DNA of 64,000 nucleotides from Escallonia rubra. Taxonomy: Eukaryota > Streptophyta > Magnoliopsida > Escalloniales > Escalloniaceae. Both the position numbers and the translations under genes were made by a program. Numbering within the stretch: the stretch's first letter is position 1; each line of letters starts with the position of its first letter. The notes under the pieces were generated by a model. That model searched no databases. It saw only the letters and a program-made list of their open reading frames with translations, and was not told where the DNA came from. This document shows positions 22,767 through 46,610 of this stretch, one piece after another. The stretch lies in assembly GCA_033065855.1 (NCBI GenBank), contig JAVXUO010000908.1, positions 372,001 to 436,000 of the forward strand, given 5' to 3'.

Positions 22767-25700
22767 ATGGCGGATAAAGGGACTGTATGTGTAACAGGGG
22801 CAGGAGGGTACGTAGCGTCGTGGCTGGTGAAGCTTCTCCTCTCTAACAACTACACTGTCCATGGCACCGTCAGAGATCCTGGTATTTCCTTGTTTCTCCT
22901 CGCTCCACTTTTCTTGTCTTGCTTCTTTGTGCATCCCTTTCTCCAAGGACATCAACTTCTGTTAGTTTCTTCAACTTTTAATGATATCTTATCAGTTAAC
23001 AAATGTGGAAGCAGTTCAGCAGTCTGGGATTGTTTCAGGAAATGACCCGATTGTCGTAGACTTCCTTGTTTCCATTTAGTCAGCAGTACATATGCGAGTA
23101 GATTTTTTGAGTGGAAGATAAATTTAAGGGTTGGGCTGGTTTGGTTTTCCCATACGTTGAATCCTAACCATTGAGGAAAGTTGGAAATCTTTTATCTTTT
23201 CTTTGAGTCATTTCTAACTCCATAGGATTCATGGATATGCACAAGTTCAAGATTTGGTGGTTGAATCGAAGATGATTGATTAGGTATTAAAATTGAATCT
23301 ACAAGAGATAAATAGGACCGTCAAGTTTATTGTGCGTGTGTGCGCGCACGAGTTGGGGATTGGTGTTGGGGGGGGTGTTGTACCGAACTGGCCCTAATAA
23401 TATTGGCACTCCTAAAAGAGCTTTATGCACCCAAAGGGTTTTAACAGATAGGCGTTACTGATATTACCCTCTTGAAGATTCTTGTCTATATATTACTTAT
23501 CTGAACATACATCTTCTTAAAGCTGTTTCATTTTCTCACCTAGATCTGCGTTCTTCTTCTATCTGCATTTGGTGAACTGTTTTGGGGGTGGGAGTATCAA
23601 TTGCCGCATTTTTGTGGGTTGATAGGCCTCCAGGAAGTCCTTTCACTGCAATTGATTGAAAATTAAGTTGGAACCCCGGGGCATGTGGGGAATGCAATTT
23701 CATACAAGGATAAGGGGTGGCTTGCCTACAGATATATTCTTCTTTTCCTTGTCTTTTAAAAGCCAATAAGCCATCCTAGTAATCAGGATATATGAGACAT
23801 TAAACTGATACTGCTATGTAATTCAAGAACGCAGAAGTGCTTGTGGAAAAGGTTTATGAGACCACCCTCTATCAGTAACTTGACGTGTACAAAGGGACTA
23901 AAGCTGGTTGAGCGTAAAGTTAAACTGCATGTGCGGTGGTTCTTAAAATTATCGTCATTCCCATGAATACACACACGAGAACATATTTGGCAACTTCAAA
24001 CAGGAAGTAGTGGTTTAATTGCAATGTTGACACTGAATACTTTGCACTCCATCTCATGGTCTCTTTGCGTTGTAGCCTTACATGGCAGTTTGCATGATAT
24101 ACGTTTGACACTGAGCATTAGTGATGTGATCTGCCTAATTTGTCCTTCAACCAATGAAATTCACTAATTAAATTCAATATTAGCTCTCAGGCATCAATTC
24201 CTTTGATGGAAAGGGAATTTACTTGGTTGGGAGGTTTGGCAAGTTTTCCCTTGCTGTAAAGATTTAAACGTTCAGGCAATAAAAACATGTATATCATGCT
24301 CAACACTTTCCCACACATGCAATCTCCGGATAGCATGTGGGACATAAGTCAATTGGATGTTGAGCTTCTCTTTTTAGAACATACATGATAAAGAACACTG
24401 AGAAGAAATGTTTTTCAAGCTAAAGATTTTTTATATGGATATATACTGCAGAAGCTGATAAGTACATTCACTTGAAGAAACTTGAAAAAGCATCTGAGAA
24501 CTTGAAACTGTTCAAGGCAGACCTGCTCGATTACACCTCTCTATCTGCAGCCATCACAGGATGCCAAGGGGTGTTCCATGTAGCAAGTCCAGTTCCCGCC
24601 AGCACCGTACCAAATCCCGAGGCAAGATATCTCTAACATTGTAGTTTGTTTGTGCAAATCACACATGCTAATATGCTGTTATTCAGGTGGAACTGATTGA
24701 GCCTGCTGTGAATGGTACACTGAATGTACTTAAGGCATGTGTTGAAGCAAATGTCACGCGAGTTGTGTATGTATCTTCTGCAGCTGCCATTAGCATGAAC
24801 CCTAACTGGCCCAAGGGACAAGTGAAGGACGAGACATGCTGGTCTGACAAGGAATACTGCAGAACAACCAATGTAATCAACTGAATATCTCTATCTTGTA
24901 GACTTGCAACTCCGATTGATGCATTTTGTTTACTCAGACGGCCTGTTACCTGTTTGTACAGAACTGGTATTGTTTGTCCAAGACAGTAGCAGAAAGCGAG
25001 GCTTGGGAGTTTGCAAAGAGAAGTGGTCTTGATATCGTAACTGTGTGCCCAACACATGTTTTGGGGCCAATGTTACAAGGCACCACAAATGCTAGTAGTT
25101 TGGTTCTTATTAAGCTTCTGAAAGGTACGCACTTGTGTCACATGCATCAATTTGTTTCTTTAGGTAATGTATGTTGTCGTTTCTGTTTAGGTGTGAACCC
25201 ATTATGTCTATTTTCATACGTGTTTGGCACTTTGTGTATGGCTTAAAAGCATAAAATGACGAATCTAGCACTCAACTTAATAGGAAAAAAATACAGGAAG
25301 AGTAAACTGGTGACAGGGCACAGTCGAATGACCATTTTCAAGGATTTAGCCGTACATGGACTGAGTTTAAAAATCGGGCAAAGTACGAGGGAAAAAGTCG
25401 ATTAAACCCTAATTATTGTATCCTGACTTCACCGACACTTGACCAACCAAAATTGCATTTTTCCTATTAACTTTTTCTGGTCAAATGAACATGGCAAGGA
25501 AAGTATGATTCCTTTTCTCTTACGTCACTCTATTTCATTCTTCCCAAGAATCATTTTCCCAGGTGACAGTTGCGTTGTTTAGATCCCTATTCTTTTGATA
25601 TCAACGCGTAATATCTTTTGAGTTGTTGTGGACAGTGTTCTCTAAGCCAGTAAATTAAGCTTTCATCACCTAACATTGGAAAGTTAAAATTCACCATGAA

Positions 25701-27085
25701 ATATGTAGACCTGTTTAATCCTTTAGCGGCAGGGGTGTGGATATAGAAAAACAGGGTGTATAATTTATAGCTTCTCACTTTTGTCCTTAGAAATACAATT
25801 TACCCCTCAAGTTTTCTATTGTAATAATATTATGCCTAAAAATTTGAAACTTTTAAATATAGCCTTACTTCTACACGCCTGCCTAGGTGCCTAAGCCGTT
25901 GCTCAAGACGGCAAATGAATATCTCATGTCTCCTTAGAAAAAGCCGTTTCATCATTTTTCTACAGGCTACTGCCTGGTGGAAGCCCAAACAACTGGCTTG
26001 GACTATGCACTTTGAATACCATGCTCGTGCAATTCAAGCCCATGGCAACCACTGCCTTCCAAAATGTTCTACCTTTCAGTTACAGAATCTTACTGTGCAA
26101 ATGCTGAAACTTTCCAGCATTTACACCCTGATTCTACTCTTAAGCGGCAAAACATTGCTAGATTGCTTAGGAAAGTGGTTTTCACCTATAGCTTACCCAA
26201 TTGGTAGAATCTTTGTGCGAAACGATTGGATTGACGTTCAAACTAAAAGAGGATTTTTATGCAGGCTTGCACATGCATGCACGCAGGGCACAAAGCGCCT
26301 TTAATATCCGAGAGTCAAAGTAGGTCAACATTATGCAGTCAAAACTACCTACCAAAAAAGATACATATTCAGTATTCCAAAAGTCACAGCTCAATATTAT
26401 CAATCTGTTCGTGTACTGATCCCAGTAAAACAATGATGTTGAGGATTTTGACTGAAGCTGTTTAGACTTGAGGATTCGACAGAAGCTGTTTATACTGATT
26501 CCGAAATTACACTTCGTATAAAGGATGGAAACCTAGCAGGAGAATGAGAGCAAAATGAGTTTTACTTATCTTCTATATCATTTACTGTTCCAACGTTGCA
26601 GGCCTTAGTGAACCAATTTTTTTATAAATTCTTTTCAAGCATGAGATTTAAATTCTTTTCTTATTTGATCACACAGAAGGATACGAGAAAATGCAAAACA
26701 TGTATCGGATGATTGTAGATGTACGTGATGTAGCTGAAGCACTGCTTTTGGTTTATGAGAGACCTGACACCAAGGGAAGATACATATGCATGGCTCACAT
26801 GATTAATACAGAGGACTTGGTGAATATGCTGAGGAGCATTTTTCCTAATTACCGCTACCCAAAGAGGTAAATTCTTTCTTTACAAATAATGCTTCTAAAC
26901 TACGTACTATCACAAATCATTTCAAGTTAGCCCAAGCATTTAATGATGGCAGTTTTACCGAGGGAAAGGAAGAAGAGCAGCTCAGTTCAGAGAAATTGCA
27001 GAGGTTGGGTTGGAGTTACAGGCCGCTGGAAGAAACTCTTATTGATTCTATTGAAAGCTACAGAGCGTCTGGAATTTTGGATTAG
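22767..27085 (+). CDS. Cinnamoyl-CoA-reductase-like SDR, copy 2 (318 aa)
   Basis: Six exons: 22767-22881, 24452-24621, 24687-24872, 24962-25124, 26677-26866 and 26953-27085, with the same exon lengths (115, 170, 186, 163, 190, 133) and phases as copies 1 and 3. The Rossmann motif [10 protein letters not shown], the SS pair at 125-126 and NWYCLSK (Tyr160/Lys164) are intact, so it should be an active NADPH-dependent reductase of the CCR-like group. Intron 2 again uses a GC donor. Intron 4 (about 1.55 kb) contains the right end of a TIR element that is complete in copy 3. Intron 5 is short (86 bp), unlike copy 1. It is closest to copy 3 throughout exons, introns and flanks, which points to a fairly recent tandem duplication. 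Confidence 0.93.
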
Positions 27086-27629
27086 AATGGTATTTTGTTA
27101 CAGCTCTTGTGATTGAACTCCCATCAGGCATGTTCACATCCAAACCTTCTATGCTTTAACAGATTCTATGCTCCTTGGACTTACTGCCGTTTGTGTATTT
27201 TGGAAAGGTTATAACAGTGTGTAGTTTTTATCACTTGGTTTGATGACACAAACAACATTGCTGCTTTGGCTGCTTCCTGGGCATCTATCACTGCTAAGCA
27301 TCCCCGTTCTTATTTTCTCTTTTTGTGTATGAGGATTTCTGAGAAGATTAGAATGACTTCTTGTCAATGATCCATTACTAGCTTATGCTCCATCTAATGG
27401 GTTATCACCAACGTGATATTACTGTCTGGAGATGGAAGAACGCTCGCCCGTGGTTAGATCCGCTCTTCTTGGTTCGTATTTGCCCAGATACGATGAATGT
27501 AGTAGGATTTCATTTCCCTAGAGCTTTGAATCTTCAAGATCCTGCCTTGGGAGGCCCTCTTTCGGTCTTCATAAGATCCAGTTTTAGTCACTGCAGCATC
27601 ATGAGCTGCCATCCGATGCGGTGGATCGT

Positions 27630-28982
27630 TTTTAGTTACAATAATTCTTAATTAATTAATTAATCGTAATTTCTTTTTGATCTGTCTATATATATATATA
27701 TATATAAAAGCCGAAACTAAGAGAATGTGTCAAGTTATCGTTTATTTAGACACTTTCTTAGATCGCTACGTGAACTTTCTTATTTTGACTTTTTGAAACA
27801 TTTTGAATGTGCTTACTTTTATAATAATAATTTGGATTTATTTCTTCTCTCCTTCTCTCTCTTATCCAAATAGATTCGAAATTTTTTTTTTGCCATTTGA
27901 AATTTAACTAGTTGTATAGATTCTATATTTCTCTCTCTTCTATGTCAACATGTCACACCCAAAAAATTTATTTATATCTTTGCAATTCCATTAATTCCTA
28001 AATTCTGTCGAAAGTAATTCTTTTTATATTCCTTCAATCTTAAATCTTTTTTATTGTTTACATAAGTCCAATATTCTTGATTGGTTTTTCTCTAACTACC
28101 GTAATCTCCTTCCTTTCATTTGATTATATAGTTTAATCTCCCATTTTATGTTCAATCATTTATTATATATCTCTACTATTTTCTTCATGACCTTGAGTCA
28201 TACAAATCTCAACACAGGTTATTCTTATTAGTATCATCGTTATAATTCCTATTAGTTATGAGAGACTATGTTTATAATTTTACATATTAATTTTTATCTT
28301 CATTTGTTGCTAAAGCTAACAATTATTACTTAAGTTCATTTTTAACGACGAAAATTGGTAGGAGAACTCATATTAAAAGGTCAAAATAAACTTTCAATTA
28401 TTTTTTTGTCACTATCAATTTTGTTATTGTTATTAGGCATACAAGTGAAAGATCTCTCAATAAGTATCTTGATAGTTGTTACTCTTTGTGCAGTGCACAA
28501 GATCAAAATTGGTTAAGAAAGACTCTATAGATGTTTTTTCATGTTTACTCTTCTTTCATTTTTTTATTAGGAAAAATTTTGATTGCTATCCCCGGTTGAA
28601 GGAATCTTCATCCTACTCCCTATATAGCGACAATCAATCGTTTCTAAATATTTCTAGTGACTTTTATTTAGTGACGCTAAAAAAATTCTGCTAATAATTA
28701 TCACTGAAAGTGTTAGAATAAAGGCCAATAGACACATTTTGTGACTATTAATTGTCACTATACACGGGGTTGGAGGAAGATTCCTACAACCCAGGTATGA
28801 GTCAACGTTTGTTCTTTTTATTATATTTATCTCTCCACTAACTAATTTTTTTCTCTCCTGACGTACTTTCTTTCCTCACTGTCTCTTGAGGTAAAATGAG
28901 AAATTCATAAATTATAGTAACTCATATCCTAAATAAGCATGTAAGTCAAAATTGATCAAATAAAATGGGACGAAAGGAGTAC
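27630..28982. mobile_element. Stowaway-like element, left end lost
   Basis: The right end (GGGACGAAAGGAGTAC, inverse GTACTCCTTTCGTCCC) has the form of a Tc1/mariner Stowaway terminus. The matching left end with CTCCCTCCGT is present in the copy-3 flank but deleted here. A TA microsatellite (27687-27706) lies near the left side. There is no coding capacity. The flank of copy 1 has no insertion at the matching place. Confidence 0.5.
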
Positions 28983-29920
28983 ATAACAGTGGGAGTATGG
29001 GATTTGATGCATCTTTTATGTATCATCCCATCTGAGTTGTCCCTTATTTTGGTATTTCCAAAAGCTAGCAGCCCGTATGTGACTCTGCTTTCCTTCGAGT
29101 CCATCGTATTGATCATCTTTTGAGACCACCCATTTTGTATTTTTAATTTATGAAGTTTGATAAGGAAAAAAGTTATAAAAGAAAAAGATATTCAACCACA
29201 CGAAAATGATATTAATTAATACAAAAAGATTAAAACCAATTTCCAAACACTAAAACCACTACGAGAAGACTAAAAAAGTTCCTAAAACCATAGAGAAAAT
29301 CACTAATCCACGTGCTATTTAGCTACTACACAATGAGCCGCCCCATTAGCCAAAGTAGTTACAAGTTCAAACAAAACTTATATAATCATCGTAGTTCAAA
29401 CTGGTCCCAAAACTCAAAGGATGAAACTGAAAGTCCAAGCAATACCTTTCTAATCAATTTTTAAGACATTTTTTCCAATTTTTAAAATTGAAAAAAAAAG
29501 AGCAAAAAAAAAAAAAAACCGTGTCAAACGGCCCCTAAACATTGTTCTACCATTATTTTGACTTTGGCTTATACGTCCCTCACGTAAAGATAATTATTTG
29601 ACTCATCAGTTTTAACAAGTGGTATTTGAGACGTAATATTTTTTGCCGGTTAGATTAAAACCTTACGATTCTGTTATATTTCTCTACCGCAAAAAAAAAA
29701 AAAAAAATCGTGTTAATAAGTGATCACATGGGGGTTATCAGTATGATTCTGGTTCGACTTCTTTTGATCTAGGCGCCTTAACGGAACCCTTTCTTAATCC
29801 TAATTCCAAACGTTTAAAATTGTTAAATATTTAGTCTAAATGTTTAAAATGGTTAGATATATAGTAAAAATACTAAGAATCGGAACAAAACTAATCTCTA
29901 GTATAGAAAGGAACATTCGA

Positions 29921-30287
29921 CATACTCCATCTATCCCACATAATTTGATCTTTGTAAAAAAATAAAAAAACAAAAATTTGATCAACCCTCCCTTTTACGC
30001 CGTCCCACAAAATTGCTCATTTCCAAATTAAGAAGATTCCGTAGGTACTTTTACATATTTACCATTTTTTTACACTTTTTTTAATTTTATTTTTCTTTCC
30101 ACATTTAAATCTTCGTCAATTCATTTTCTCTCTCTACTTTTTACATTTAACACTTCACTAATTCATTTTTTTCTTTTCTTCTCCTATTTTCTCTAAAGGG
30201 AAGAATATAAAATATGTAATATATTACTTAAATCTTTAATCTATGTAAAAAAATAATTGATCAGATTATATGAGACGAATAAAATAG
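29921..30287. mobile_element. Stowaway-like MITE
   Basis: The left end TACTCCATCTATCCCACATA pairs with the right end (inverse TACTATTTTATTCGTCTCAT) over about 28 bp with mismatches, including the shared ATAAT.TGATC block. The TA at each end fits a mariner-type target. A shorter related copy lies at about 47503-47863. Confidence 0.5.
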
Positions 30288-30306
30288 TATTCATGTGGTG
30301 GATGAA

Positions 30307-31361
30307 TTCTTTATCTTAATAATGCTTTATCTTAATAATGCTTCTAAAGCATGTACTGGTATTATCTAAAAAAAGTTTCGGCCCTTGGGTTTGTTGCATA
30401 TTTAAACATTGTGAAATATTGTGTAAAAATAATTGCGTCTTTTGGTTCAGATCATCCATATATCCTCATCTCAATTATTTATCTGGTTTTCCTAATGTAT
30501 TATTGCCTTCTTTTTCACGAACATTTACCATTGGCAGTTTTATCGCGGGAGAGGAAGCAGAGCCGCAGTTCAGAGAAATTGCAGAGGGTGGGTTGGAGTT
30601 ACAGGCCGCTGGAAGAAACTCTCATTGATACTATTGAAAGCTATAAATTGTCTGGAATTTGGATTAGAATGGGATTTTGTTACAGCTTTTGCGATTGAAC
30701 TTCCATCAGGCATTCTCACGTCCAAACCTTCTATGCTATAGCAGATCTTATGCTCCCACCACGATGTGTATGCTATGGGCTGTTCATATTAATGTTTTGA
30801 ACTTTACTGCAGTTTGTTTACTTTTAGTAACGCTGTAACAGAGTAGTTTTCACACAAACAATATTGCTGCTTTGGCTGCTTCCAGGTCACGTATCACGGC
30901 TGAGCGTCCCCGTTCTTACTCCTCTGTTTTGGTTGAAACTGACTGCGATGACTCATGACAGTGAGGACTTCTGAAAAGATTAGTACCAACTTGTGAAATG
31001 ATCTAAGACTAGCACGTTTGAAGGAGTCTGTGTCCACCAAGGTGGGTTCAACTACTGCCGGCGGGAGCCTAAAACATCAGCTATGCGGGCCTTGCGTGCT
31101 TTCTGTGTGCACAGGGCACGCTATTATATGTACATATGCATAATCAATTTTTTCCTCAAAATTCTAGTGCATTATCTTTGGAGAGAACCATGAGAAGGGC
31201 TGTTAAGATTTCTTCGTAAAAATTGGTCCTGTTGCGGCAAAAGTCATGCACCCAGTCCTGGTAAACGGTGATACGTGAATGGCAGGCAAAAGCAGCTAAT
31301 GTTGGCCACTTTTAAGACCCTCTGTTCTCTATTTTCAATTTATGAAGTTTGATCAGGACAG

Positions 31362-31368
<7 letters not shown>
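30307..31368 (+). pseudogene. Orphan last exon of reductase copy 1 plus its 3' flank
   Basis: This segment is collinear with 20479-21868, that is, intron 5, exon 6 and downstream DNA of copy 1. The exon-6 relic (30538-30667) keeps the acceptor and most codons but has lost two bases (GAGCCGCAG against GAGCCGCTCAG), shifting the frame, and one more base near the stop. No exons 1-5 precede it. A 17-bp local duplication (TTTATCTTAATAATGC twice) sits just after the junction, and about 395 bp of the copy-1 flank (21413-21808) is replaced here by about 75 unrelated bases. Confidence 0.88.

Positions 31369-31398
<30 letters not shown>
31364..31398. repeat. TA microsatellite at the left edge of the MULE
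   Basis: A run of TA dinucleotides ends directly before the left inverted repeat of the Mutator-like element. The matching place after copy 1 (21868) reads ATATACGTGG, so the run expanded here or was the insertion target. Confidence 0.85.
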
Positions 31399-31399
<1 letters not shown>

Positions 31400-31753
31400 T
31401 TAATTACGCCATTGACCATTGAACTATTAGGCATATTTCATTTTGACCACTGGACTTACAATTGTGTCAAAGTGACCACTGATGTTTAAACTTTGTCCAA
31501 ATAAGGTCATTCCGTTCAGTAGAGCTTATCGGCGTTCCGTTAACTCCCTTTAGTGAGGGGTAACCACGTCATTTTGCCTATTATCTTCCCCTTTTCTTCT
31601 CTTCTTTCCCTCCATTCTTCTTTCCCTCCATATTTCTTTCCCGCCCAGCATCTCATCTCATTTTCCCTCCTCTTCTTCCACATCACAAGACATTCTACTT
31701 CTTCTTCCACAGCAAACAAAAAGAAAAAAAAAACCCAATCCACTCCTCCTTCC

Positions 31754-32146
31754 ATGGGTTGCTACTGTCGAAAGAGTCCAACAATTAAGACATCATGGAC
31801 CCCGAAAAACCCAGGAAGAAGATTCATGGCTTGCGGAGCTGAAAATGAAGATCCATGTGAGTATTTTATTTGGATTGATCCACCCATGTGTGAAAGGGCT
31901 GTGCAAATCATACCTGGACTGCTACGAAGGATCAATGGAAATGCTGAGGAGGTTCGAAGGCTTATGGTGCAAATTGAAGGTAAACAAGAGCAATTGGTGA
32001 CATATGAGAAGAAACTGAGAAGCTATCAATGGAAGGAAAAGATATTGTGGTTTGTCTTGTTGTGCTCATGGGTGTTCTTTGTAATGAACTTCAAGTCAAA
32101 AAGAACCGCAAACAACAGTTTGCTTTTGGAGATTGGAGAGTTGTGA
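31754..32146 (+). CDS. GRF-type zinc-finger protein with C-terminal TM segment (MULE second gene, 130 aa)
   Basis: A single-exon frame from the ATG at 31754 (context CCATGG) to TGA. The frame is open further upstream but without an ATG, and that part is low-complexity leader. The N-terminus holds a GRF-like zinc finger: Cys3 and Cys5, the NPGRRFMACG motif (19-28, Cys27) and CEYFIW with Cys35. Residues 63-95 are charged and heptad-like (coiled coil), and 97-113 (ILWFVLLCSWVFFVMNF) form a membrane segment. GRF fingers bind single-stranded nucleic acid in other proteins. Plant genomes hold many small proteins of this build, often annotated as uncharacterised At4g04775-like (from memory). Lying within MULE ends, it occupies the place that mudrB has in maize MuDR, but I see no similarity to MURB. 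Its role in transposition is unknown. Confidence 0.8.
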   Translation: MGCYCRKSPTIKTSWTPKNPGRRFMACGAENEDPCEYFIWIDPPMCERAVQIIPGLLRRINGNAEEVRRLMVQIEGKQEQLVTYEKKLRSYQWKEKILWFVLLCSWVFFVMNFKSKRTANNSLLLEIGEL

Positions 32147-32628
32147 TCTGGGTAACAATTTGTGTCTGGGGACTTGTGTTCTTTGTAATGTTAGTGTTTT
32201 TAATGTAATGTAATGGAAAGGGATGTGCATGTAATGGCAGCTGTAATGGAAAGAATATAATGGAAGCAGTTTGTTTGTTTGTGCTTAACAGTTTGTTTGT
32301 GCTTGATTGGGATGTAATGGAAAAACATGTAATGGAAGCAGCTGTAATGGAAAGAAAAAAATGGAAGCAGCTGTAATGTATGAATATTGTTGACTATAAT
32401 TGCTTCTGTTTCAAAATGGCATTTGTCAATGCTTCTTTACCAACATAACATCAATATTATTCTAAGGACAAATCTGCCTACCTACAGCTATAAAACAAAA
32501 GGCTGTAGAATGATATGTCCATAAAAGCTATAAGTTATCCACAGAAGACTCCATCTATCCCAACATGCTTCCTAAATCAAAAAGCTACAGCTATCCACAA
32601 AAGGCTTTAGTCTTCCCATGTACACAAG
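32147..32628. other. Region between the two MULE genes
   Basis: Short repeats of TGTAATGGAA and AATGGAAGCAG recur between 32200 and 32390. This is probably the shared 3' UTR/terminator zone of the convergent genes. Confidence 0.55.
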
Positions 32629-35600
32629 TTATCTCCTAACTGATTGTCTTGTTGTAGGTCTTGCTCCTTGGCTTGAAGTTGCTGTACTTGCACCTCCTGT
32701 TGCACATTGTTGGCCAGAAGTTGCATTGTTTCTCCTCACCTGTAAATCATAAAATAACTAAGGAATAAGTAATTCACATACAAAATATAGATGGCTAATA
32801 AGAAATAGGTTCAAACTCACTGGATATTTCTTCCTTCCAGCTTCAGGTTGTAGCCAACCTTTGGGGTTTGGATCTGTCACCTTCTTCTTCTTAGGCTGGA
32901 TTCTCTTTTCACTGCCTTGTGTAGTGCATCCTGCCTTCCCAGTGTTATGACCACCTGTAGCTGTCACCTTCCCCATGACCTTGCCCCGACCTCGATTCCC
33001 CTTCTTAGGTTCTCTTGTCTTTGGTTGACACCCTTGCCCCCTGCAACCCCTACTGTTGTGCCCAGCATTGCCACATTTGCTACAGGTGATAACCATTCCC
33101 TTTCTTCCTAATTTTCCAGCCCCATCAGGTAGACCCCTCTTAGGCTGTGTGACCTCATCCCAATCCTTCCTTCTTAGCTTCTTAGGCCTACCAGGTTGCT
33201 TATGATATATAGGTGGAAGAATGGTCCCTTTATTTGTTGGTTCCCAAAGGTTGGAACCACTAAGGGGGTTCACTAAGTAGTCATAGACTTTCTTAAAAGT
33301 TTCAACCCTAAAACACTCATCAACCCACTGCTCAGGTTCACCCCCATTCCCTCCATTAGCCATGTCATTGTAAATTGCTGAAATTGCATGTGCACATGGA
33401 ATTCCACATAAATCCCATTTTCTGCAGCTGCAAGTCTTGTTGTGCAGGTCAACCACATAACCTTCCCCACTTGCAGCCCTCACACTATATAGACTGCCAC
33501 CATTCCAAGCACAATTATAGTGGCAGGACTTCAACTTCAACTTCTCTAACTTAGCCTGAATCTTGGGACACAACAAACCATCCCACTTTTCCATCTCTTT
33601 TCTCTTCTTCACAATCCTTTGCATTACTTGATTTCTAATGTTCTCAAGGCATGTAATTATAGGTTTATCCCTAGCACTGACAATGGCCCCATTAAACACC
33701 TCACAGTAGTTATTTAGCAATAGATCACACCTGGTCTTCAGTGAGAAGTGAGATCTAGACCAATAATGGGGTGGGATCTTAGCTAAGTATTCATAAGCAC
33801 CTACACAGTCTTCTTTTATCTGTTGCATGCTTCTGCCAAAGTATATGGCATTGGGAGCCTTTGCAGCATTCCACATGGCATTCTTAAGATCTAAACTCCT
33901 AAACTGCTTCTTGAAATTTTTGTACATGTGCATGACACAATACCTCTGTTCACACAGAGGTAGAACTGTTTCTAGTGCTGTCAGCAAACCCTAAAAAAAT
34001 GATTAAATAAAGTAAACAAGTTAGTGGAAAATATTAAATAGCAAATAAGTTGAGAAATATAGTTAATGGTTGATTATTACCTTTTGTTGGTCTGAAATGA
34101 AAGTCCATTCACTTTGGTCCTCAATCTGTAAGTCTTCTTTTAAAAGGTTGATGAACCATTCCCAAGAGAGCATGTTTTCTGCCTCAACCACTGCCCATGC
34201 AAAGGGGTACATGCCATTATCAGGGTCAATACCCACTGCTGTCAACAGTTGTCCTGGGAAAGGACCTTTTAAAAAGCACCCATCAAGCCCCACAATTTTC
34301 TTACACCCTGTCTTGAACCCATTCTTCAGAGGGCCCAAACACATGTACAACCTTAAAAACCTAGGGAATTCTTCTCCAACTATTGGCTCACACAGCTTCA
34401 TAAGTGCAGTGGTCCCTGGATTGCACTTGGTCACCTCATTACAATAGTCCCATAAACCCTTAAATTGCTCCCTATAACTGCCATCAATCATATCTGCTGC
34501 CTTCCTTTTTGCTCTGTAAACTTTACTTCTAGAAACACCAGCTTCCAAATCTGTCCTAATAGTTTCTCTTATTGACTCAAGTGGCCATGTGGGGTTTGAT
34601 CTGAACTTCTCCAGGTATTTTTTGGATATCCAATCAGCTTTGATATGTTGGTTATAGTATACATGTGGGCAAATGTGCTCTTTATGATATGTCTTAACAA
34701 TTAAGCTATCTTTCTCAGCAAGCTTGGAAGCATATAAAACCCACTCACACTGTGGACTCCCATAACACTTTGCTCTAACCCTTTCTTTTTCATTTGTGTA
34801 CAATTTTATGTTTCTTCTAGTCAGGATTGCATGTTCTCTGATAGATTGCTTCAAGACACCTGCATTACCAAACAACTGACCTACACTAAATTTGGGCCTG
34901 CTCATGTCTACTTCAGGGTTAAACTGAACACAACTCCTCTTATCTTTGTCAACTTCATCCTCAGACATACTTGTCAAACTCCTTAGTTCATCAGAGTCAT
35001 CATAATCTGATGTCCTTTCTTGTTCCTCAGATTGTAGTACTGCTTGATCCCTGATGACCATGTCATTCCAATCTTCACCTACATCTACATTTGCATGGTA
35101 AAGATCTATATCTTCCTCAACCTCATACTCACTATCATATATATCATTAGGAGGGCAGTACTGTGAGTCATCTGAGTCACTATCATGCTCACTCTCATTC
35201 CCATGCCCACTCCCAATCTGTGAGTCATCTGAGTCACTATCATGCTCACTCTCATTCCCATGCCCACTCCCAATCTGATCAGTGTTTACATGCCCACTCT
35301 CATTCTGATCAGTGTTCACATGCTCACTCTCATTCCCATGCCCACTCCCAATCTGATCAGTGTTTACATGCCCACTCTCATTCTGATCAGTGTTCACATG
35401 CTCACTCTCATTCCCATGCCCACTCCCAATCTGATCAGTGTTTACATGCTCATGCTCTGAGTTGCTGTTAACAGTGTGTAACTCTTGCTCATTGGGATGT
35501 TCATTTTCACATGGGGGAAGAAGAAGCTGGGTAAACTTATTGTTCTCATAGTATGATGCATCCAGGTCATCCTGAGTACCTAATGGATGTTCATCACATA

Positions 35601-36381
35601 AATCAATCTCCTCAATTACAACTGATGAACCAGTTACAGGTGGAGGTACAAAATACTCCTCCACTGATGCACTTCCATGCTCAACATAGAATTCTACAAC
35701 ATTAACCTTTTTCTCAGTTATAACTCTTATTAGTTCCCTGATATCATCATCACCCCCTAGACCCCTCAACCCATTGTCAAGGCTCATCCCAGGAACCCTG
35801 TAATAATAAAACATCACCTCATGCCCATAACCGAACTCCTTTAACATTTCATCCACTTCATGCATTGACATCTTATCACACTCACAGTAATCGAAATAAT
35901 TAACAAGGCCATCAATGTAGTGCCTCTTTGGCATGTAAACAAACTCTCCACCACTGTGCAACTCAACTGTAAAGAAGTCTACTGACGTTCCTGTTTATAA
36001 GATATTTACTAATTAATACTCCAATTTCACGTTATAAAGTGCATATTATAGTAATTTCGAACAGCAAATTGCTATTCCCAAGCCCATAAACAAATAAGAA
36101 AAAAATTGAATTTAATTAACATAACAGCATGCATGCATTCTATATAAAAATTACTTCTAAGTATGTGTAAACAACATTATTTGTGAATCTGTATAAACAA
36201 TATTATTTGGGAATCTGTGTAAACAACATTATTTCATGGATCATGATTGTGTGGGTGGCTACATCAGGATTCGTGTCTATTTAAAAAACATATCACTAAA
36301 TCTAAAAAATGTATAGAAAAACTTACCGTAAAGATCGTGTGTTTCAAGATGGGTACCCTCTTCTCTAAGAACCCACGCCAT
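32629..36381 (-). CDS. MuDR-type (MURA) transposase, four exons (1081 aa)
   Basis: Exons on the minus strand: 36381-36327, 35990-34081, 33990-32821 and 32739-32629. Phases join exactly (55, 1910, 1170 and 111 nt). Exon 1 (MAWVLREEGTHLETHDLY) is inferred from a good donor (TACG|gtaagt) and an acceptor (aaacag|GAACG) that restores frame; without it the next exon lacks an ATG. Domains in order: N-terminal MULE region (VDFFTVELHSGGEFV); an acidic low-complexity repeat (about 195-290); a MuDR DNA-binding region starting RPKFSVGQLF; the MULE DDE catalytic domain with Asp588 (GLDGCFLKGPF) and Asp652 (FISDQQKG) and the NNYCEVFN motif (748-755); a SWIM zinc finger (CSCRKW, then CGIPCAH, 842-856); an AT-hook-like GRPKKLRR; and a CCHC knuckle (CSKCGNAGHNSRGC, 958-971). 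No stop or frameshift was seen, so it may be functional. Confidence 0.9.
35163..35450. repeat. Coding minisatellite in the transposase, 78-bp and 57-bp units
   Basis: On the minus strand the repeat encodes alternating blocks HVNTDQIGSGHGNESE and HVNTDQNESG (26-residue unit, about 2.5 copies), then IGSGHGNESEHDSDSDDSQ twice. The DNA copies are nearly identical and keep the frame. Confidence 0.9.
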
Positions 36382-36412
36382 TGCAATCTTTTATCTCCGT
36401 GGACTTTACTTG

Positions 36413-36650
36413 ATTCGAGTAAAGGAAACGACGATCTCCCTCTGAAAATCAAAGAAGATGGAAAGACAGAGAAAGAGGAGACGATGTGTGTCTTTGTAGA
36501 AACGAACAACAGGTAGAGTGACGAATTGATCGTTCTTCGAGTAAAGGAATAACGATCTCCCTCTGAAAATCGAAGAAGATGGAAGGACAGAGAAAGAGGA
36601 GACGAACTGTCTCTCTGAAGAAACGACGGACAGGTAGAGTGACGACTTTA
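36413..36650. repeat. Tandem duplication in the transposase upstream region, about 122-bp period
   Basis: Copies start near 36417 and 36539 (GAGTAAAGGAA, then CGATCTCCCTCTGAAAATC) and end with ACAGGTAGAGTGACGA. They lie just upstream of the transposase ATG, so they form its 5' UTR or promoter. Confidence 0.85.
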
Positions 36651-36812
36651 CCCTTCAAATTTGAAACTTAACGGATTTGTTCTCGACGGAACCTAACAGA
36701 ATGACCTTATTTGGACAAAGTTTAAACATCAGTGGTCACTTTGACACAATTGTAAGTCCAGTGGTCAAAATGAAATATGCCTAATAGTTCAATGGTCAAT
36801 GGCGTAATTAAC

Positions 36813-37092
36813 ACTTTCTAAAGACTAAAACCAACCAAATGTCTCAACTTTAAACTTCCTTCAACTATTGGGAAAAATCAGTAATCCAACAATGAGCCCA
36901 AGTATAATGTATGATAAAAAGTCAAATTACTCGCTAATAATTCATTTTTTCTATTGACCAAAAGTCATCAAGTTAGTTGATCGATCATTTTCTTGCCGAC
37001 AGAAAATTGAGCTAAAAAAGGGTCAATTGAATACTATTTTGTTTTTTAGTAAGGGACTTTGTAGTTTGTAGACAATTATAAAGTTCCAAGTA
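36813..37092. other. Distal promoter region of reductase copy 3
   Basis: Collinear with about 22373-22650 upstream of copy 2 (shared ACTAAAACCAACCAAATGTC and AATGAGCCCAAGTATAATGT). It was separated from its gene by the element at 37093-38738. Confidence 0.8.
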
Positions 37093-38738
37093 GGGAGCTG
37101 ATCCATTGAGAGCGCGGACAAAATGTGAGATCTTGCAAACGCGATCTGGCCGTCTACGACCGATCTGTGGACGGTCCAGATCTTTTTTTTACGTTTTTTT
37201 CAGTCTGTCCGCTATATTATGTAGCGGATAATTTTCTGACAAAAATACCCCTCTACTGTCCACTACATAATGTAGCGAACAAGATCACATATTTGAATTT
37301 GGTCTTATTTCTTCTGTTTTATGTCATTTGTATGTCAGAGAAAATTGGATCTGGAATACCATACTAGCGGCGAACACACTCTGTTTCTCTCTTCCTCATC
37401 TAATCTCATCTCCTCCTTTCTCTCTCTCTCTCTCTCTCCGTGTCTCACTTTCGTCGGCCACATAAGGCAAGTGTACGCGATTGTGGAGAAGGAGGAGGAC
37501 TAGGCGCGGCAGCGTGAGGCGATGTAAAAATGGGCAACGGCGGCATCTACGGCGATGGGTGGATTTCGGGACGGCGAGATCTTAGATAGATTAGATTTAG
37601 ATTTGGATTTGGGTTTGGTTTCGACGGCAAGATCATAAATTGGATTTGGGTTTGGTTTGGGCTTAAGATTAGATTTGGATTTGGATTAGGTTTGGGGTAG
37701 CGAAGGTTCGAATGGTGGTGGTTCAGGGAGGCAGAGTTCGAATGGTGGCGGCGATGGGTTCAGTGGTGGTTCGGGGAGGCAGAGTTCAGATGGTGGTGGC
37801 GATGGGTTCAGTGGCGGTGACAAAATGATGGTGCTGCCTAGCTGAGAGGTTGTGGTTTCTTGCTTATGGTGGAGGGCGGTGGTTCTGCCATGCCCATCGT
37901 TCTTTCATTTTATGCCGTCGCCAATTTGGGTTTTTATTTGAGTCTGTCATGAGCACTCACCGTAAGGGTTGCGTCGAATTTTTGGTTTGATGTTGGTTGG
38001 TCTGTTTGTTTTGGAAGCAACTGGCTTTTAGAGGTCAAGAGAATGTCTAGTTTCCGGTGGAGAATTTGGTCGAACTTTGGGTTTGACTGGGTTTGGCGGT
38101 TTAGTTTATGGAAAACCTTTTGTGGGTTTTTGGATTGGGCTCTTTGATCATCATCATCCGTTCTTCCTGCCGAGGTTTTTGCGCATATGGGAAACATATC
38201 CCTTGATTCCTGCAAATTCAAGTTCTCCTCCCATCACCGTGTAGAATGCCATCCAACTGTAACTTCCGGCAATCAGAGAGAGAGAAAGAGAGATAAGAAG
38301 AAGAAGAAGAAGAAGAAAGGAGGGGAGAGAAGGATGAGACAGAAAACAAAAAAGTGGTGAGAGAAAGAGAGAAAGAGTCGGACATTGATGGGAGAGAGAG
38401 AGAAACATCAAACATGTCAGAAAATTAATAAGGAGACAGAAAGAGTCAGTAAAAAAGTACTGCCTCCGTCCGCTATATAATGTAGCGGATGGTGCTGGAG
38501 GGTATTTTTGTCAAAAAATTATCTGCTACATAATGTAGCGGACGGACTTAAAAAAAACATAAAAAAGTACTGAGCTGGAGGGTATTTTTGTCAAAAAATT
38601 GTCCGCTACATTATGTAGCGGACGGGCTGAAAAAAAACGTAAAAAAAAGATCTGGACCGTCCACAGATCGGTCATGGACGGTCAGATCGCATTTACAAGA
38701 TCTCCCATTTTGCCAGCGCTCTCAATGGATCAGCTCCC
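37093..38738. mobile_element. Non-autonomous long-TIR element (MULE-like)
   Basis: The left end (GGGAGCTGATCCATTGAGAG) and right end are inverted repeats of at least 100 bp with few mismatches, and similarity continues for perhaps 200 bp. The subterminal parts carry five copies of a near-palindrome of about 22-23 bp (GTCCGCTACAT joined to its inverse) at about 37206, 37258, 38467, 38522 and 38601. The interior has CT-rich DNA, repeated GGATTTGGATT and GGTTCGAATGGTGG blocks, but no supported gene. The promoter of copy 2 is the empty site (22638-22650). The flanking TTCCAAGTA and TTGGGGAAGGGGTA may be a decayed duplication of 8-10 bp. Long TIRs suggest a Mutator-like element. Confidence 0.75.
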
Positions 38739-38861
38739 TTTGGGGAAGGGGTAAATGTAAAGTTGGGTTATTAGGAGGTCAAATTTTTAGTTGCTACGGT
38801 GAATCGAAAGGGAGAAGAAAAACAAGACCACCACCGCTTCGTTTGCTAATTTCGCTCCTTG

Positions 38862-41800
38862 ATGGCGGAGAAAGGGACTGTATGTGTAACAGGGGCAGGA
38901 GGGTACGTAGCGTCGTGGCTGGTGAAGCTTCTCCTCTCTAACAACTACACTGTCCATGGCACCGTCAGAGATCCTGGTATTTCCTTGTTTCTCCTCGCTC
39001 CACTTTTCTTGTCTTGCTTCTTTGTGCATCCCTTTCTCCAAGGACATCAACTTCTGTTAGTTTCTTCAACTTTTAATGATATCTTATCAGTTAACAAATG
39101 TGGAAGCAGTTCAGCAGTCTGGGATTGTTTCAGGAAATGACCCGATTGTCGTAGACTTCCTTGTTTCCATTTAGTCAGCAGTACATATGCGAGTAGATTT
39201 TTTGAGTGGAAGATAAATTTAAGGGTTGGGCTGGTTTGGTTTTCCCATACGTTGAATCCTAACTATTGAGGAAAGTTGGGAATCTTTTATCTTTTCTTTG
39301 AGTCATTTCTAACTCCATAGGATTCATGGATATGCACAAGTTCAAGATTTGGTGGTTGAATCGAAGATGATTGATTAGGTATTAAAATTGAATCTACAAG
39401 AGATAAATAGGACCGTCAAGTTTATTGTGCGTGTGCGCGCGCACGTGTTGGGGATTGGTGTTGTTGTGTGTTGTGGGGGGGGGCTGGTGTTGTACGGAAC
39501 TGGCCCTAATAATATAGGCACTCCTAAAAGTGCTTTATGCACCCAAAGGGTTTTAACAGATAGGCGTTACTGATATTGCCCTCTTGAAGATTCTTGTCTA
39601 TATATAACTTATCTGAACATACATCTTCTTAAAGCTGTTTCATTTCTCACCTAGATCTGCGTTCTTCTTCTATCTGCATTTGGTGAACTGTTTTGGGGTG
39701 GGAGTATCAATTACTGCATTTTTGCGGGTTGATAGGCCTCCAGGAAGTCCTTTCACTGTAATTGATTGACAATTAAGTTGGGACCCCGGGGGATGTGGGG
39801 AATGCAATTTCATACAAGGATATGGGGTGGCTTGCCTTCAGATATATTCTTCTTTTCCTTGTCTTTTAAAAGCTAATAGGCCATCCTAGTAATCAGGATA
39901 TATGAGACATTAAACTGATACTTCTATGTAATTCAAGAACGCAGAAGTGCTTGTGGAAAAGGTTTATGAGACCACCCTCTATCAGTAACTTGACGTGTAC
40001 AAAGGGACTAAAGCTGGTAGCGCGTAAAGTTAAACTGAAGTGCGGTGGTTCTTAAAATTATCGTCATTCCCATGAATACACACACGAGAACATATTTGGC
40101 AACTTCAAACAGGAAGTAGTGGTTTAATTGCAATGTTGACACTGAATACTTTGCACTCCATCTCATGGTCTCTTTGCGTTGTAGCCTTACGTGGCAGTTT
40201 GCATGATATACGTTTGACACTGAGCATTAGTGATGTGATCTGCCTAATTTGTCCTTCAACCAATGAATCCACTAATTAAATTCAATATTAGCTCTCAGGC
40301 ATCAATTCCTTTGATGGAAAGGGAATTTACTTGGTTGGGAGGTTTGGCAAGTTTTCCCTTGCTGTAAAGATTTAAACGTTCAGGCAATAAAAACATGTAT
40401 ATCATGCTCAACACTTCCCCACACGTGCAATCTCCAGATAGCATGTGGGACATAAGTCAATTGGATGTTGAGCTTCCCTTTTTAGAACATACATGATAAA
40501 GAACACTGAGAAGAAATGTTTTTCAAGCTAAAGATTTTTTATATGGATATATATACTGCAGAAGCTGATAAGTACATTCACTTGAAGAAACTTGAAAAAG
40601 CATCTGAGAACTTGAAACTGTTCAAGGCAGACCTGCTCGATTACACCTCTCTATCTGCAGCCATCACAGGATGCCAAGGGGTGTTCCATGTAGCAAGTCC
40701 AATTCCCTCCAGCACCGTACCACATACCGAGGCAAGATATCTTTAACATTGTAGTTTGTTTGTGCAAATCACACATGCTAATATGCTGTTATTCAGGTGG
40801 AACTGGTTGAGCCTGCTGTGAATGGTACACTGAATGTACTTAAGGCATGTGTTGAAGCGAATGTCATGCGAGTTGTGTATGTATCTTCTGGAGCTGCCGT
40901 TAGCATGAACCCTAACTGGCCCAAGGGACAAGTGAAGGACGAGACATGCTGGTCTGACAAGGAATACTGCAGAACAACCAATGTAATCAACTGAATATCT
41001 CTATCTTATAGACTTGCAACTCCGATTGATGCATTTTGTTTACTCAGACGGCCTGATTACCTGTTTGTACAGAACTGGTATTGTTTGTCCAAGACAGTAG
41101 CAGAAAGCGAGGCTTGGGAGTTTGCAAAGAGAAGTGGTCTTGATATCGTAACTGTGTGCCCAACACTTGTTTTGGGGCCAATGTTACAATGCACCACAAA
41201 TGCTAGTAGTTTGGTTCTTATTAAGCTTCTGAAAGGTACGCACTTGTGTCACATGCATCAATTTGTTTCTTTAGGTAATGTATGTTGTCGTTTTTGTTTA
41301 GGTGTGAACCCATTATGTCTATTTTCATACGTGTTTGGCACATTGTGTATGTATGCATTCATTTACATCTAAGTATGACTTATGTGGTGCCTACTTCCCT
41401 CTTAATGATTTTTACCCCTTACGTCTGTGCTCCCAGTCCTTTAAAAGATGAGGTAGGACAGGAGCGAAGTCACTGACAGCGAGATTTTGTAGATAGAATT
41501 CTCAACACCCCTCCCCCCCGTCCGCCCTGACCCAAGTAAAATCATTGAGTCATTCAAAGTAGGCAACATTTTAGACATTCTCTGAGAGGTTTCTCAGTGG
41601 GGGGCTTTTCTTGTTAGTCTATTGTGGAGCACTTTCTCGGTGCTTTGGCCCTTTTCACTGTGCTTCTACTTTGGTTGCCTCACTTCCCCTCTTTAACAAT
41701 AAGTGCGTAAAGCTACATGCTTGTGTACCTATATATTTGACGGGAACATACATACATACGGTTTTTTCCTTTGAAAAGGAGTTGAAGTTTTGGGGGTTTT

Positions 41801-44303
41801 TTTTTTTCCCATTTTTTCTCCCTCGTACTTTGCCCGGTTTTTCATTTCAGTCCCGTGCTGCTAAATCCTTGAAACTAATTGTTGTACTATGTCCTGTCAT
41901 CACTTTAGTCCCTCCATTTGTTAAAAACATGGGGGTACTTTTGTCCTTAAAAAATGCATCCCTCTCTCCTCTTTCTTCTTCATCTCCAGTCAACACACCA
42001 CCACTGACAGGGGCAACCACCACCACAGTTTGATCCATTACCTAGCAACACGGGATCTTGCCGCTTGTAGACATAATGTAAACCGTAGTGCAACTTCAAG
42101 ACTCAGAAAAAGAGGGAGGGGTTGGGGTGAAGGGCGATTTGAAACCCCACGGCGTCGCCGCAGAGGGAGGGGGTCAGAGGGAGATGGTGAACCAGGCGAC
42201 TTAACGGCTAGTGCGAGCTCGAGAAGGGAGGTGGAGGGGTTGCAGTGAAGGGCAATTACACGGCGCCAAGAGGGAGGGGGTTAGAGGCCGATGGCGAAGC
42301 TGCAGAAAGAGGAAGGGTTGGGGGGGGGGGGGGGGAGAGGGGAGGGGGGTTGGACTCATTGCCATATTAGGAACCCTAGGAACTGTGTCATGTACATGGC
42401 ATGTGCCATTTTTGGCTTAAAAGCATAAAATGACTAATCTAGCCCTCAACTTAATAGGAAAAAAATACAGGAGGAGTAAACTGGTGACAGGGCACAGTCG
42501 AATGACCATTTTCAAGGATTTAGCCGTACATGGACTGATTTAAAAAAGCGGGCAAAGTACGAGGGAAAAAACTCGATTAAACCCTAGTTATTGTATCCTG
42601 ACTTCACCGACACTTGACCAACCAAAATTGCATTTTTCCTGTGAACTTTTTCTGGTCAAATGAACATGACAAGGAAAGTATGATTCTTTTTCATTTACGT
42701 CACTCTATTTCATTCTTCCCAAGAATCATTTTCCCAGGTGACAAAGACGTAGTGTTTGTTGCGTTGTTTAGATCCCTATTCTTATGATATCAACGCGTAA
42801 TATCTTTTGAGTTGTTGTGGACAGTGTTCTCTAAGCCGGTAAATTAAGCTTTCATCCCCTAACATTGGAAAGTTAAAATTCACCATGAAATACGTAGACC
42901 TGTTTAATCCTTTAGCGGCAGGGGTGTGGATATAGAAAAACAGGGTGTATAATTTATAGCTTCTCACTTTTGTCCTTAGAAATACAATTTACCCCTTTTA
43001 GTTTTCTATTGTAATAATATTATGCCTAAAAATTTGAAAATTTTAAATATAGCCTTACTTCTACACGCCTGCCTAGGTGCCTAAGCCGTTGCTCAAGACG
43101 GCAAATGAATATCTCATGTCTCCTTAGAAAAAGCCGTTTCATCATTTTTCTACAGGCTACTACCTGGTGGAAGCCCAAACAACTGGCTTGGACTATGCAC
43201 TTTGAATACCATGCTCGTGCAATTCAAGCCCATGGCAACCACTACCTTGCAAAGTGTTCTACCTTTCAGTTACAGAATCTTACTGTGTAAATGCTGAAAC
43301 TTTCCAGCATTTACACTCTGATTGTACTCTTAAGTGGCAAAACATTGATAGATTGCTTAGGAAAGTGGTTTTCACCTATAGCTTACCCAATTGGTAGAAC
43401 CTTTGTGCGAAACGATTGGATTGACGTTCAAACTAAAAGAGGATTTTATGCAGGCTTGCACATGCATGCACGCAGGGCACGAAGCGCCTTTAATATTCGA
43501 GAGTCAAAGTAGGCCAACATTATGTGGTCAAAACTACCTACCAAAAAAGATACATTTTCAGTATTCCAAAAGTCACAGCTCAATATTATCAATCTGTTCG
43601 TGTTCTGATCCCAGTAAAACAATGATGTTGAGGATTTTGACCGAACCTGTTTAGACTTGAGGATTCGACAGAAGCTGTTTATACTGATTCCGAAATTACA
43701 CTTTGTATAAAGGATGGAAACCTAGCAGGAGAATGAGAGCAAAGTGAGTTGGACTTTTACTTATCTTCTATATCATTTACTGTTCCAAAGTTGCAGGCCT
43801 TAGTGAACCAATTTTTTTTTTAATTCTTTTCAAACATGAGATTTACTTGAAATGGCTGTTAATGGTTGCCATCACTTCTTATTTGATCACACAGAAGGAT
43901 ACGAAAAAATGCAAAACACGTATCGGATGATTGTAGATGTACGTGATGTAGCTGAAGCACTGCTTTTGGTTTATGAGAGACCTGACACCAAGGGAAGATA
44001 CATATGCACGGCTCACATGATTAATACAGAGGACTTGGTGAATATGCTGAGGAGCATTTTTCCTAATTACCGCTACCCAAAGAGGTAAATTCTTGCTTTA
44101 CAAATAATGCTTCTAAACTACGTACTATCACAAATCATTTCAAGTTAGCCCAAGCATTTAATGATGGCAGTTTTACCGAGGGAAAGGAAGAAGAGCAGCT
44201 CAGTTCAGAGAAATTGCAGAGGTTGGGTTGGAGTTACAGGCCGCTGGAAGAAACTCTTATTGATTCTATTGAAAGCTACAGACCGTCTGGAATTTTGGAT
44301 TAG
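38862..44303 (+). CDS. Cinnamoyl-CoA-reductase-like SDR, copy 3 (318 aa)
   Basis: Six exons: 38862-38976, 40562-40731, 40797-40982, 41073-41235, 43895-44084 and 44171-44303, with exon lengths identical to copies 1 and 2. The cofactor motif [10 protein letters not shown] and the catalytic Ser126, Tyr160 and Lys164 (NWYCLSK) are intact. It differs from copy 2 at few residues, for example PHTE instead of PNPE before intron 2 and SGAAVS instead of SAAAIS after VYVS. Intron 2 uses a GC donor. Intron 4 is about 2.66 kb because it contains a TIR element (41813-42571) and extra DNA. Its promoter is split by the 37093-38738 element, with the MULE further upstream, so expression may differ from copy 2. 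The reaction is inferred as for copy 1; the substrate is unknown. Confidence 0.93.
41813..42571. mobile_element. Long-TIR element in intron 4 of reductase copy 3
   Basis: The left end (CCCTCGTACTTTGCCCGG, then CTAAATCCTTGAAA and TGTCCTGTCATCACTTTAG) is the approximate inverse of the right end (CGGGCAAAGTACGAGGG) over about 120 bp with moderate divergence. The interior is G-rich, with a run of 16 G (42320-42335). Copy 2 intron 4 keeps only the right end (25260-25400). It is probably a non-autonomous Mutator-like element. Confidence 0.65.
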
Positions 44304-44872
44304 AATGGTATTTTGTTACAGCTCTTGTGATTGAACTCCCATCAGGCATGTTCACATCCAAACCTTCTATGCTTTTAACAGATTCTATGCTCTTAACAGA
44401 TTCTATGCTCCTTGGACTTACTGCCGTTTGTGTATTTTGGAAAGGCTATAACAGTGTGTAGTTTTTATCACTTGGTTTGATGACACAAACAACATTGCTG
44501 CTTTGGCTGCTTCCTGGGCATGTATCACTGCTAAGCATCCCCGTTCTTATTTTCTCATTTTGTGTATGAGAATTTCTGAGAAGATTAGAATGACTTCTTG
44601 TCAATGATCCATGACTAGCTTATGCTCCATCTAATGGGTTATAACCAACGTGATATTACTGTCTGGAGATGGAAGAACGCTCGCCCGTGGTTAGATCCGC
44701 TCTTCTTGGTTCGTATTTGCCCAGATACGATGAATGTGGTAGGATTTCATTTCCCTAGAGCTTTGAATCTTCAAGATCCTGCCTTGGGAGGCCCTCTTTC
44801 GGTCTTCATAAGATCCAGTTTTAGTCACTGCAGCATCATGAGCTGCCATCCGATGCGGTGGATCGTTTTTAC

Positions 44873-44937
44873 CACTCCCTCCGTTTTTAGTTACAATAAT
44901 TCTTAATTAATTAATTAATCGTAATTTCTTTTTGATT

Positions 44938-44987
<50 letters not shown>

Positions 44988-46260
44988 CCGAAACTAAGAG
45001 AATGTGTCAAGTTATCGCTTATTTAGATACTTTCTTAGATCGCTATGTGAACTTTCTTATTTTAACTTTTTGAAACATTTTGAATGTGCTTACTTTTATA
45101 ATAATAATTTGGATTCATTTCTTCTCTCCTCTCTTATATCCAAATAGATTCGATTTTTTTTTTTTTTTCATTTGAAATTTAACCAGTTGTATAAAGTTTA
45201 TATTTCTCTCTCTTCTTTGTCAACATGTCACACCCAAAAAATTTATTTATATCTTTGTAATTCCATTAATTCCTAAAAATTTCCGAAAGTAATTCTTTTT
45301 ATATTCCTTCAATCTTAAATCTTTTTTATTGTTTTACAGAAGTTCAATATTCTTCATTAGTTTTTCTCTAACTACCATAATCTCATTCCTTTCATTTGAT
45401 TATAAAGTTTAATCTCTCATTTTATGTTCAATTATTTATTATATATCTTTACTCTTTTCTTCATGACCTTGAGTCATACAAATCTCAACTCACAGATTAT
45501 TCTTATTAGTATCATCACTATAATTGCTATTAGTTATGAGAGACTATTTTTATAATCTTACATATTAATTTTCATCTTCATTTGTTGCTAAAGCTAACAA
45601 TTATTACTTAAGTTCATTTTTAACGACGAAAATTGGTAGGAGAACTCATATTAAAAGGTCAAAATAAACTTTCAATTATTTTTTTGTCATTATCAATTTT
45701 GTTATTGTTATTAGGCATACAAGTGAAAGATCTCTCAATAAGTATCTTGATAGTTGTTACTCTTTGTGCAGTGCGCAAGATCAAAATTGGTTAAGAAAGA
45801 CTCTATAGATGTTTTTTCATGTTTACTCTTCTTTCACTTTTTTATTAGGAAAAAATTTGGCTGCTATCCCGGTTGAAGGAATCTTCATTCTACTCCCTAT
45901 ATAGCGACAATCAATCGTTTCTAAATATTTCTAGTGACTTTTATTTAGTGACGCTAAAAAAATTCTGCTAATAATTGTCACTGAAAGTGTTAGAATAAAA
46001 GCCAGTAGAAACATTTTGTAACTATTAATTGTCACTATACACGGGGTTGAAGGAAGATTCCTACAACTCGGGTATGAGTCAACGTTTGTTCTTTTTATTA
46101 TATTTATCTCTCCACTAACTATTTTTTTTTCGCTTCTGATGTACTTTCTTTCTTTACTGTCTCTTGAGGTAAAATGAGAAATTCATAAATTATAGTAACT
46201 CATATCCTAAATAAGTATGCAAGTCAAAAGTGATCAAATAAAATGGGACGAAAGGAGTAC
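44873..46260. mobile_element. Stowaway-like element, both ends present
   Basis: The left end has CACTCCCTCCGTTTTTAGTT and the right end GGGACGAAAGGAGTAC. These are imperfect inverted repeats of the Stowaway type. The element is about 1.39 kb, long for a MITE, and encodes nothing recognisable. A TA run (44942-44983) lies near the left side and is about twice as long as in the copy-2 flank. Confidence 0.55.
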
Positions 46261-46610
46261 ATAACAGTGGGAGTACGGGATTTGATGCATCTTCTATGTA
46301 TCATCCCATCTGAGTTGTCCCTTATTTTGGTATTTCCAAAAGCCAGCAGGCAGCAGCCCGTATGTGACTCTGCCCCGTATGTGACTCTGCTTTCCTTCGA
46401 GTCCATCATATTGATCATCTTTTGAGACCACTCATTTTGTATTTTTAATTTATGAAGTTTGATAAGGAAAAAAGTTATAAAAGAAAATGATATTCAACCA
46501 CACGAAAATGATATTAATTAATACAAAAAGATTAAAACCAATTTCCAAACACTAAAAACACTACGAGAAGACTAAAAAGGTTCCTAAAACCATAGAGAAA
46601 ATCACTATTA

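Follow-up and report, generated by a model that had tools for sequence, protein, structure and literature searches.

A two-gene MULE with identical ends

The window that we analysed, a 64-kb stretch (64,000 nucleotides) of contig JAVXUO010000908.1 from Escallonia rubra, contains an element bounded by long terminal inverted repeats. Between them lie a transposase gene of four predicted exons and a shorter gene convergent to it (Table 1). An initial annotation, made from the sequence alone, had described the 114-bp ends as identical. Indeed, aligning the two ends gave 114 matches in 114 positions, with the outer coordinates exact at 31399 and 36812 and similarity lost just inside the repeats; in BLAST the match was longer, 118 bp with 99.15% identity. 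The element thus has the long terminal inverted repeats of the MULE superfamily.

The three tandem modules within the terminal repeat begin at repeat positions 15, 46 and 75. Of these, the second and third share 20 of 29 positions. The best 28-bp self-match in the repeat, which scores 20, was equalled in none of 500 dinucleotide shuffles, and none of 2000 shuffles contained at least two TGACCAYTG sites. It is a natural inference from this pattern that the array provides candidate binding sites for the transposase, which would bind the terminal modules, cut the element out and paste it elsewhere.

No further copy of the terminal repeat and no second copy of the element were found in the 64-kb window by BLAST at E≤0.01, and the best other match to the repeat alone had an E of 0.79. 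Matches in the window that passed this threshold were the element itself, its two ends, its internal repeats and a single 38-bp match (18594-18629, E 0.007) to DNA interior to the ends. On the plus strand of the spacer between the two genes, at 32184-32376, TGTAA occurs nine times and AATATAA once. Rfam gave no matches within the window.

Table 1. Positions of the element, its parts and the surrounding features in the window
Feature	Positions	Strand	Description
Tandem segmental duplication, block 1	20477-30306
Reductase-like exon, block 1	26706-26867		cinnamoyl-CoA-reductase/DFR-like
Tandem segmental duplication, block 2	30321-47904
Reductase-like exon, block 2	43924-44085		cinnamoyl-CoA-reductase/DFR-like
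(AT)16.5 tract	31364-31396		2 bp outside left end
Left terminal inverted repeat	31399-31512	+	114 bp, identical to right one
Three tandem modules, left repeat	31413-31501	+	31, 29 and 29 bp, each beginning TGACCAYTG; mirrored in right repeat
Second gene	31754-32146	+	130 aa; GRF zinc ribbon residues 3-42, hydrophobic stretch 97-115, short tail
Spacer between convergent genes	32147-32628		482 bp
Tandem repeats, 15-bp units	32312-32353
Transposase exon 4	32629-32739	-	includes stop
Transposase exon 3	32821-33990	-	catalytic E, SWIM zinc finger, CCHC-like knuckle (motif only)
Transposase exon 2	34081-35990	-	N-terminal region, acidic linker, MuDR DNA-binding domain, first two catalytic D
Tandem repeats in acidic linker	35161-35449	-	57 and 78 bp, 100% identical, in frame
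Tandem repeats, 26-bp units	36150-36235
Transposase exon 1 (predicted)	36327-36381	-	18 codons
Tandem duplication, 121-bp units	36414-36645		88% matches; upstream of predicted transposase start
Right terminal inverted repeat	36699-36812	-
Right flank	36813-36888		homology to unoccupied paralogous sites begins at its first base

The transposase gene

The transposase had been proposed to be open across four exons, and this held: the joined exons encode 1081 amino acids with no internal stop. The three introns (336, 90 and 81 bp) all have GT...AG borders. Their splicing is predicted, and the short exon 1 is the most tentative part of the model. The product matches three Pfam families above their curated cut-offs: MULE (PF10551; E 9.6e-17, score 61.7 against a cut-off of 27.6), DBD_Tnp_Mut (6.1e-9) and SWIM (3.5e-8). 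Transposase_mut is barely above its cut-off (21.5 bits against 21). The PF10551 match and the presence of D588, D652 and E752, assigned by motif, which we take to be the catalytic residues, identify a DDE transposase of the MULE type. In addition, the protein has a CCHC-like knuckle, for which Pfam gives no match, and a SWIM-type CxCx(n)CxH motif.

The acidic linker that precedes the DNA-binding domain contains tandem repeats whose lengths, 57 and 78 bp, are both multiples of three. Their complete identity suggests a recent change of length in which the reading frame was kept. For the N-terminal region (35644-35988), which may have a PB1-like fold, Pfam gave a sub-threshold match only (E 0.07), and none of the 714 Foldseek matches to its single-sequence model, a poor one (pLDDT 51.6), reached an E of 0.001. 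A search of solved structures with a 214-aa stretch of the transposase returned one chance-level match (E 0.33), and NCBIfam had no match for the three proteins submitted. A 300-aa stretch had no matches among viral contigs, and none of the 48 pattern matches in prokaryote genome contigs was confirmed; both collections are uninformative on plants.

A local duplication provides a comparison for the insertion

The element lies in the second block of a tandem segmental duplication, which offers a built-in comparison for the insertion. Between the two blocks, 278 of 8840 aligned bases are substituted (3.1%), as counted from the six colinear rows of a nine-row alignment; the three dropped rows are matches between different repeats. 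Besides the reductase-like exon in each block, two more cinnamoyl-CoA-reductase/DFR-like exons lie outside the blocks, at 20313-20474 and 50659-50814.

Block 1 contains no copy of the element. Since the element is present in one block only, it was probably inserted after the tandem duplication; alternatively, it may have been lost from block 1, where other sequence, 506 bp long, occupies the site. Ends dating from the duplication would be expected to have gathered 3.6 mismatches, and the chance of finding none is 0.028, a value computed after seeing the data. At plant substitution rates of 7e-9 and 1.3e-8 per site per year, the duplication is roughly 1.2-2.3 million years old and the ends are younger than roughly 1.0-1.9 million years (95%). 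Gene conversion, by which identical ends can also arise through homogenisation, would weaken both the 0.028 and the 1.0-1.9 million-year figures. The youth of the element, suggested in the initial annotation, is supported both by its identical ends and by its absence from a sister block that has diverged by 3.1%.

The insertion site

We found no target-site duplication at lengths of 6-13 bp with the ends shifted by -3 to +3; just two comparisons, 4/6 and 5/8, exceeded 60%. The 8-11 bp duplication of MULEs is therefore missing at this site, as is the 9-bp duplication for which the initial annotation had suggested looking. We nevertheless assign the element to the MULEs, because a target duplication is a property of the site and because other MULEs also lack one: MULEs without it are on record in PMC5907723, and a table in PMC6446971 gives 'No TSD' for one MULE group.

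The flanks point to change at the site. The right flank is ordinary sequence, matching two unoccupied and more distant paralogous sites at 17 of 20 positions (29238-29257) and 16 of 20 positions (46540-46559) from the first base outside the element, whereas the sequence just inside the right end matches the first of these sites at 7 of 20. When the 20-mer was shuffled 1000 times, a match as good as 17/20 arose once. To the left of the element, the stretch similar to the two unoccupied copies is 31309-31358 and stops before the AT tract, and similarity to block 1 (31300-31368, 95.7%) stops just within it. Between the flanks, the unoccupied copies have 71 bp (29167-29237 and 46469-46539) with no clear counterpart beside the element; as these copies are 82-84% similar to about 50 bp of the left flank, they give a likeness of the site, not its exact earlier state. 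Since the right flank is homologous from its first base and these 71 bp lack a counterpart, the left neighbourhood, together with any left-hand target duplicate, appears to have been replaced, whether at, before or after insertion. Judged from these alignments, the DNA beside the left end looks replaced; the left duplicate would have been lost as flanking DNA gave way to the AT tract, or might never have formed.

We also considered positions 21869-22380 of block 1 as the empty site, and rejected them: they hold 506 bp of other sequence (21874-22379), and homology stops 7 bp outside the element. This sequence lies at most 7 bp from the position that the MULE takes in the sister block, and its matches elsewhere in the window are just short and simple-repeat-like. 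The presence of 506 bp of unrelated sequence at the block 1 site indicates that this spot has changed more than once.

The AT tract could itself have been the target rather than a scar, if the element were a microsatellite-targeted MULE of the MuTAnT/SaTar kind that went into a TA tract or next to one and left no readable duplication. The tract lies 2 bp from the left end, and if the two ends were placed uniformly, at least one would come to lie within 5 bp of any of the six tracts of at least 20 bp in the window with a chance of 0.84% (computed after seeing the data). PMC4486113 and PMC5907723 describe MULEs with microsatellite flanks, some of which lack duplications. However, a TA microsatellite on both flanks, as in MuTAnT/SaTar, is not what we see: the right flank has no TA tract and is homologous to paralogous sites that are not TA, and the tips of the element do not start with the MuTAnT mask. 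We consider such targeting unlikely.

Both the missing target duplication and the rearranged flanking DNA would also fit an inactive relic whose young look comes only from homogenisation of the ends. Yet both genes are open, the recent tandem expansions in the transposase preserved the frame, and the element is absent from block 1, which makes a relic quite improbable. The identical ends and the open frame with D588, D652 and E752 agree instead with the earlier proposal of an apparently intact, autonomous element. We favour, with a probability of roughly 0.78, the reading that this is a structurally complete, probably autonomous plant MULE, the splicing of its transposase being predicted.

The second gene encodes a GRF zinc-ribbon protein

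As the initial annotation had stated, the second gene is convergent to the transposase. Its product matches PF06839 (GRF; E 9.2e-8, 32.5 bits against a cut-off of 25.9) and has cysteines at positions 3, 5, 27 and 35, presumably the ligands of a GRF zinc ribbon. Apart from this, Pfam gives just a sub-threshold match to DUF4419. The hydrophobic stretch, which has a mean hydropathy of 1.75, is close to the C-terminus. A model of low confidence (mean pLDDT 58.2) has a possible long helix at residues 64-128. The protein resembles a DNA-repair zinc finger: among solved structures, it comes closest to the GRF fingers of NEIL3 (phmmer, 9.4e-5 for the whole sequence), where the two matching stretches are singly weak (0.43 and 1.3). 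Two pattern matches to the protein in viral contigs, a collection uninformative on plants, were not confirmed.

A GRF partner is an unusual part of such an element, known here from one copy. Among the matches listed, we found no report in the open-access literature of a GRF gene within a MULE, and nothing on At1g43920. In passages of PMC7729826 and PMC11844115, a GRF protein appears apart from a transposase or transposon, and no MULE is named. PMC9168764 and PMC4486113 describe as still unclear why some MULEs have a second gene and what its function is. An intact element whose second gene encodes a recognisable fold of the single-strand-DNA-binding kind allows a concrete, testable helper hypothesis to be put forward.

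We give about even odds to the GRF protein being an accessory transposition factor, which would act at single-stranded intermediates or in regulation. A far more specific version, which we hold to be improbable, is that in this MULE lineage a dedicated, membrane-tethered GRF protein fills a mudrB-type helper role: it would bind the single-stranded DNA of excision or insertion intermediates and would hold the transposition complex to a membrane, for instance the nuclear envelope. Plant GRF proteins with hydrophobic tails are annotated as host genes; if this version were true, such 'host' genes would often be transposon genes.

The second gene could instead be a host GRF gene captured in the manner of Pack-MULEs, standing outside the machinery of the element. 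The gene is known from a single copy. Gene capture is well known in MULEs (PMC9168764), and GRF domains are present in host repair proteins (PMC9266487). However, the open reading frame is complete and needs no intron, and it has the convergent position relative to the transposase that the accessory gene has in MuDR and, according to PMC9168764, in type II Abermu elements. We regard capture as somewhat unlikely; if the element were an ordinary MULE with a captured gene, its value would be mostly for annotation.

Another role to consider is that of an anti-silencing factor, like VANC of the Arabidopsis VANDAL elements, acting on the non-coding tandem repeats of the element itself. Such repeats are present, with units of 26, 121 and 15 bp, and VANC targets form tandem repeats according to PMC10398659. 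The Pfam results, limited to GRF and the sub-threshold DUF4419, nevertheless speak against it, and a hydrophobic tail would be unexpected in such a factor. We judge this role to be very unlikely, and retain the accessory transposition factor as our working view.

Comparison with known MULEs

Maize MuDR (mudrA and mudrB) has long terminal repeats, a MURA-like transposase and a convergent second gene, and the present element shares all three. The initial annotation had likened the element to MuDR. This likeness stands for the convergent layout, as in the strict MuDR family, and for the layout only: the second gene here encodes a GRF zinc ribbon with a hydrophobic stretch, and the site has no 9-bp duplication.

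Type II Abermu MULEs likewise combine a transposase with an opposite-strand gene, ORFR, between the transposase and a terminal repeat (PMC9168764). This source calls ORFR unrelated to mudrB, and the term GRF is absent from its main text; the comparison with Abermu is by description, not by sequence. The same paper reports transposition of Os3378 and Muta1 in yeast.

MuTAnT/AutoMuTAnT and SaTar elements, according to PMC4486113 and PMC5907723, share with our element a position adjoining a TA microsatellite and an unreadable target duplication. Here, in contrast, the tract is on one side only, the tip sequence is different, and there are two genes as opposed to the single open reading frame of AutoMuTAnT.

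Arabidopsis VANDAL/Hiun elements are also MULEs with additional genes. Their vanB and vanC products are described in a passage of PMC6446971 as other, divergent proteins, with no mention of GRF, and it is by this description that we set them apart. The same survey reports other accessory open reading frames of MULEs, mostly PMD in plant groups, and the term GRF is absent from its main text.

Other features of the window

A second inverted-repeat element of about 1.65 kb (37092-38739; 109-bp arms, 93% complementary) lies 279 bp from the MULE in the same block, an arrangement that recalls the clustered SaTar MULEs (PMC5907723). It interrupts the block alignment opposite 22651-22653, and no clean target duplication was found at it. 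The alignment is also interrupted by a 284-bp stretch (46608-46891) with 39-bp inverted ends (46607-46645 and 46858-46896, 90%), which is missing at 29303-29305. With its 3-bp overlap at the empty site, it looks like a recent MITE. Each block has one imperfect long hairpin, MITE- or foldback-like (45847-46092 and 28594-28791; 99-nt and 75-nt arms, 76-77%, 48-nt loops). Farther away, pieces of an HMG-CoA reductase gene lie on the minus strand at 9024-11482, with PF00368 in two open reading frames, and the open reading frame at 6331-6858 has an F-box match exactly at the cut-off.
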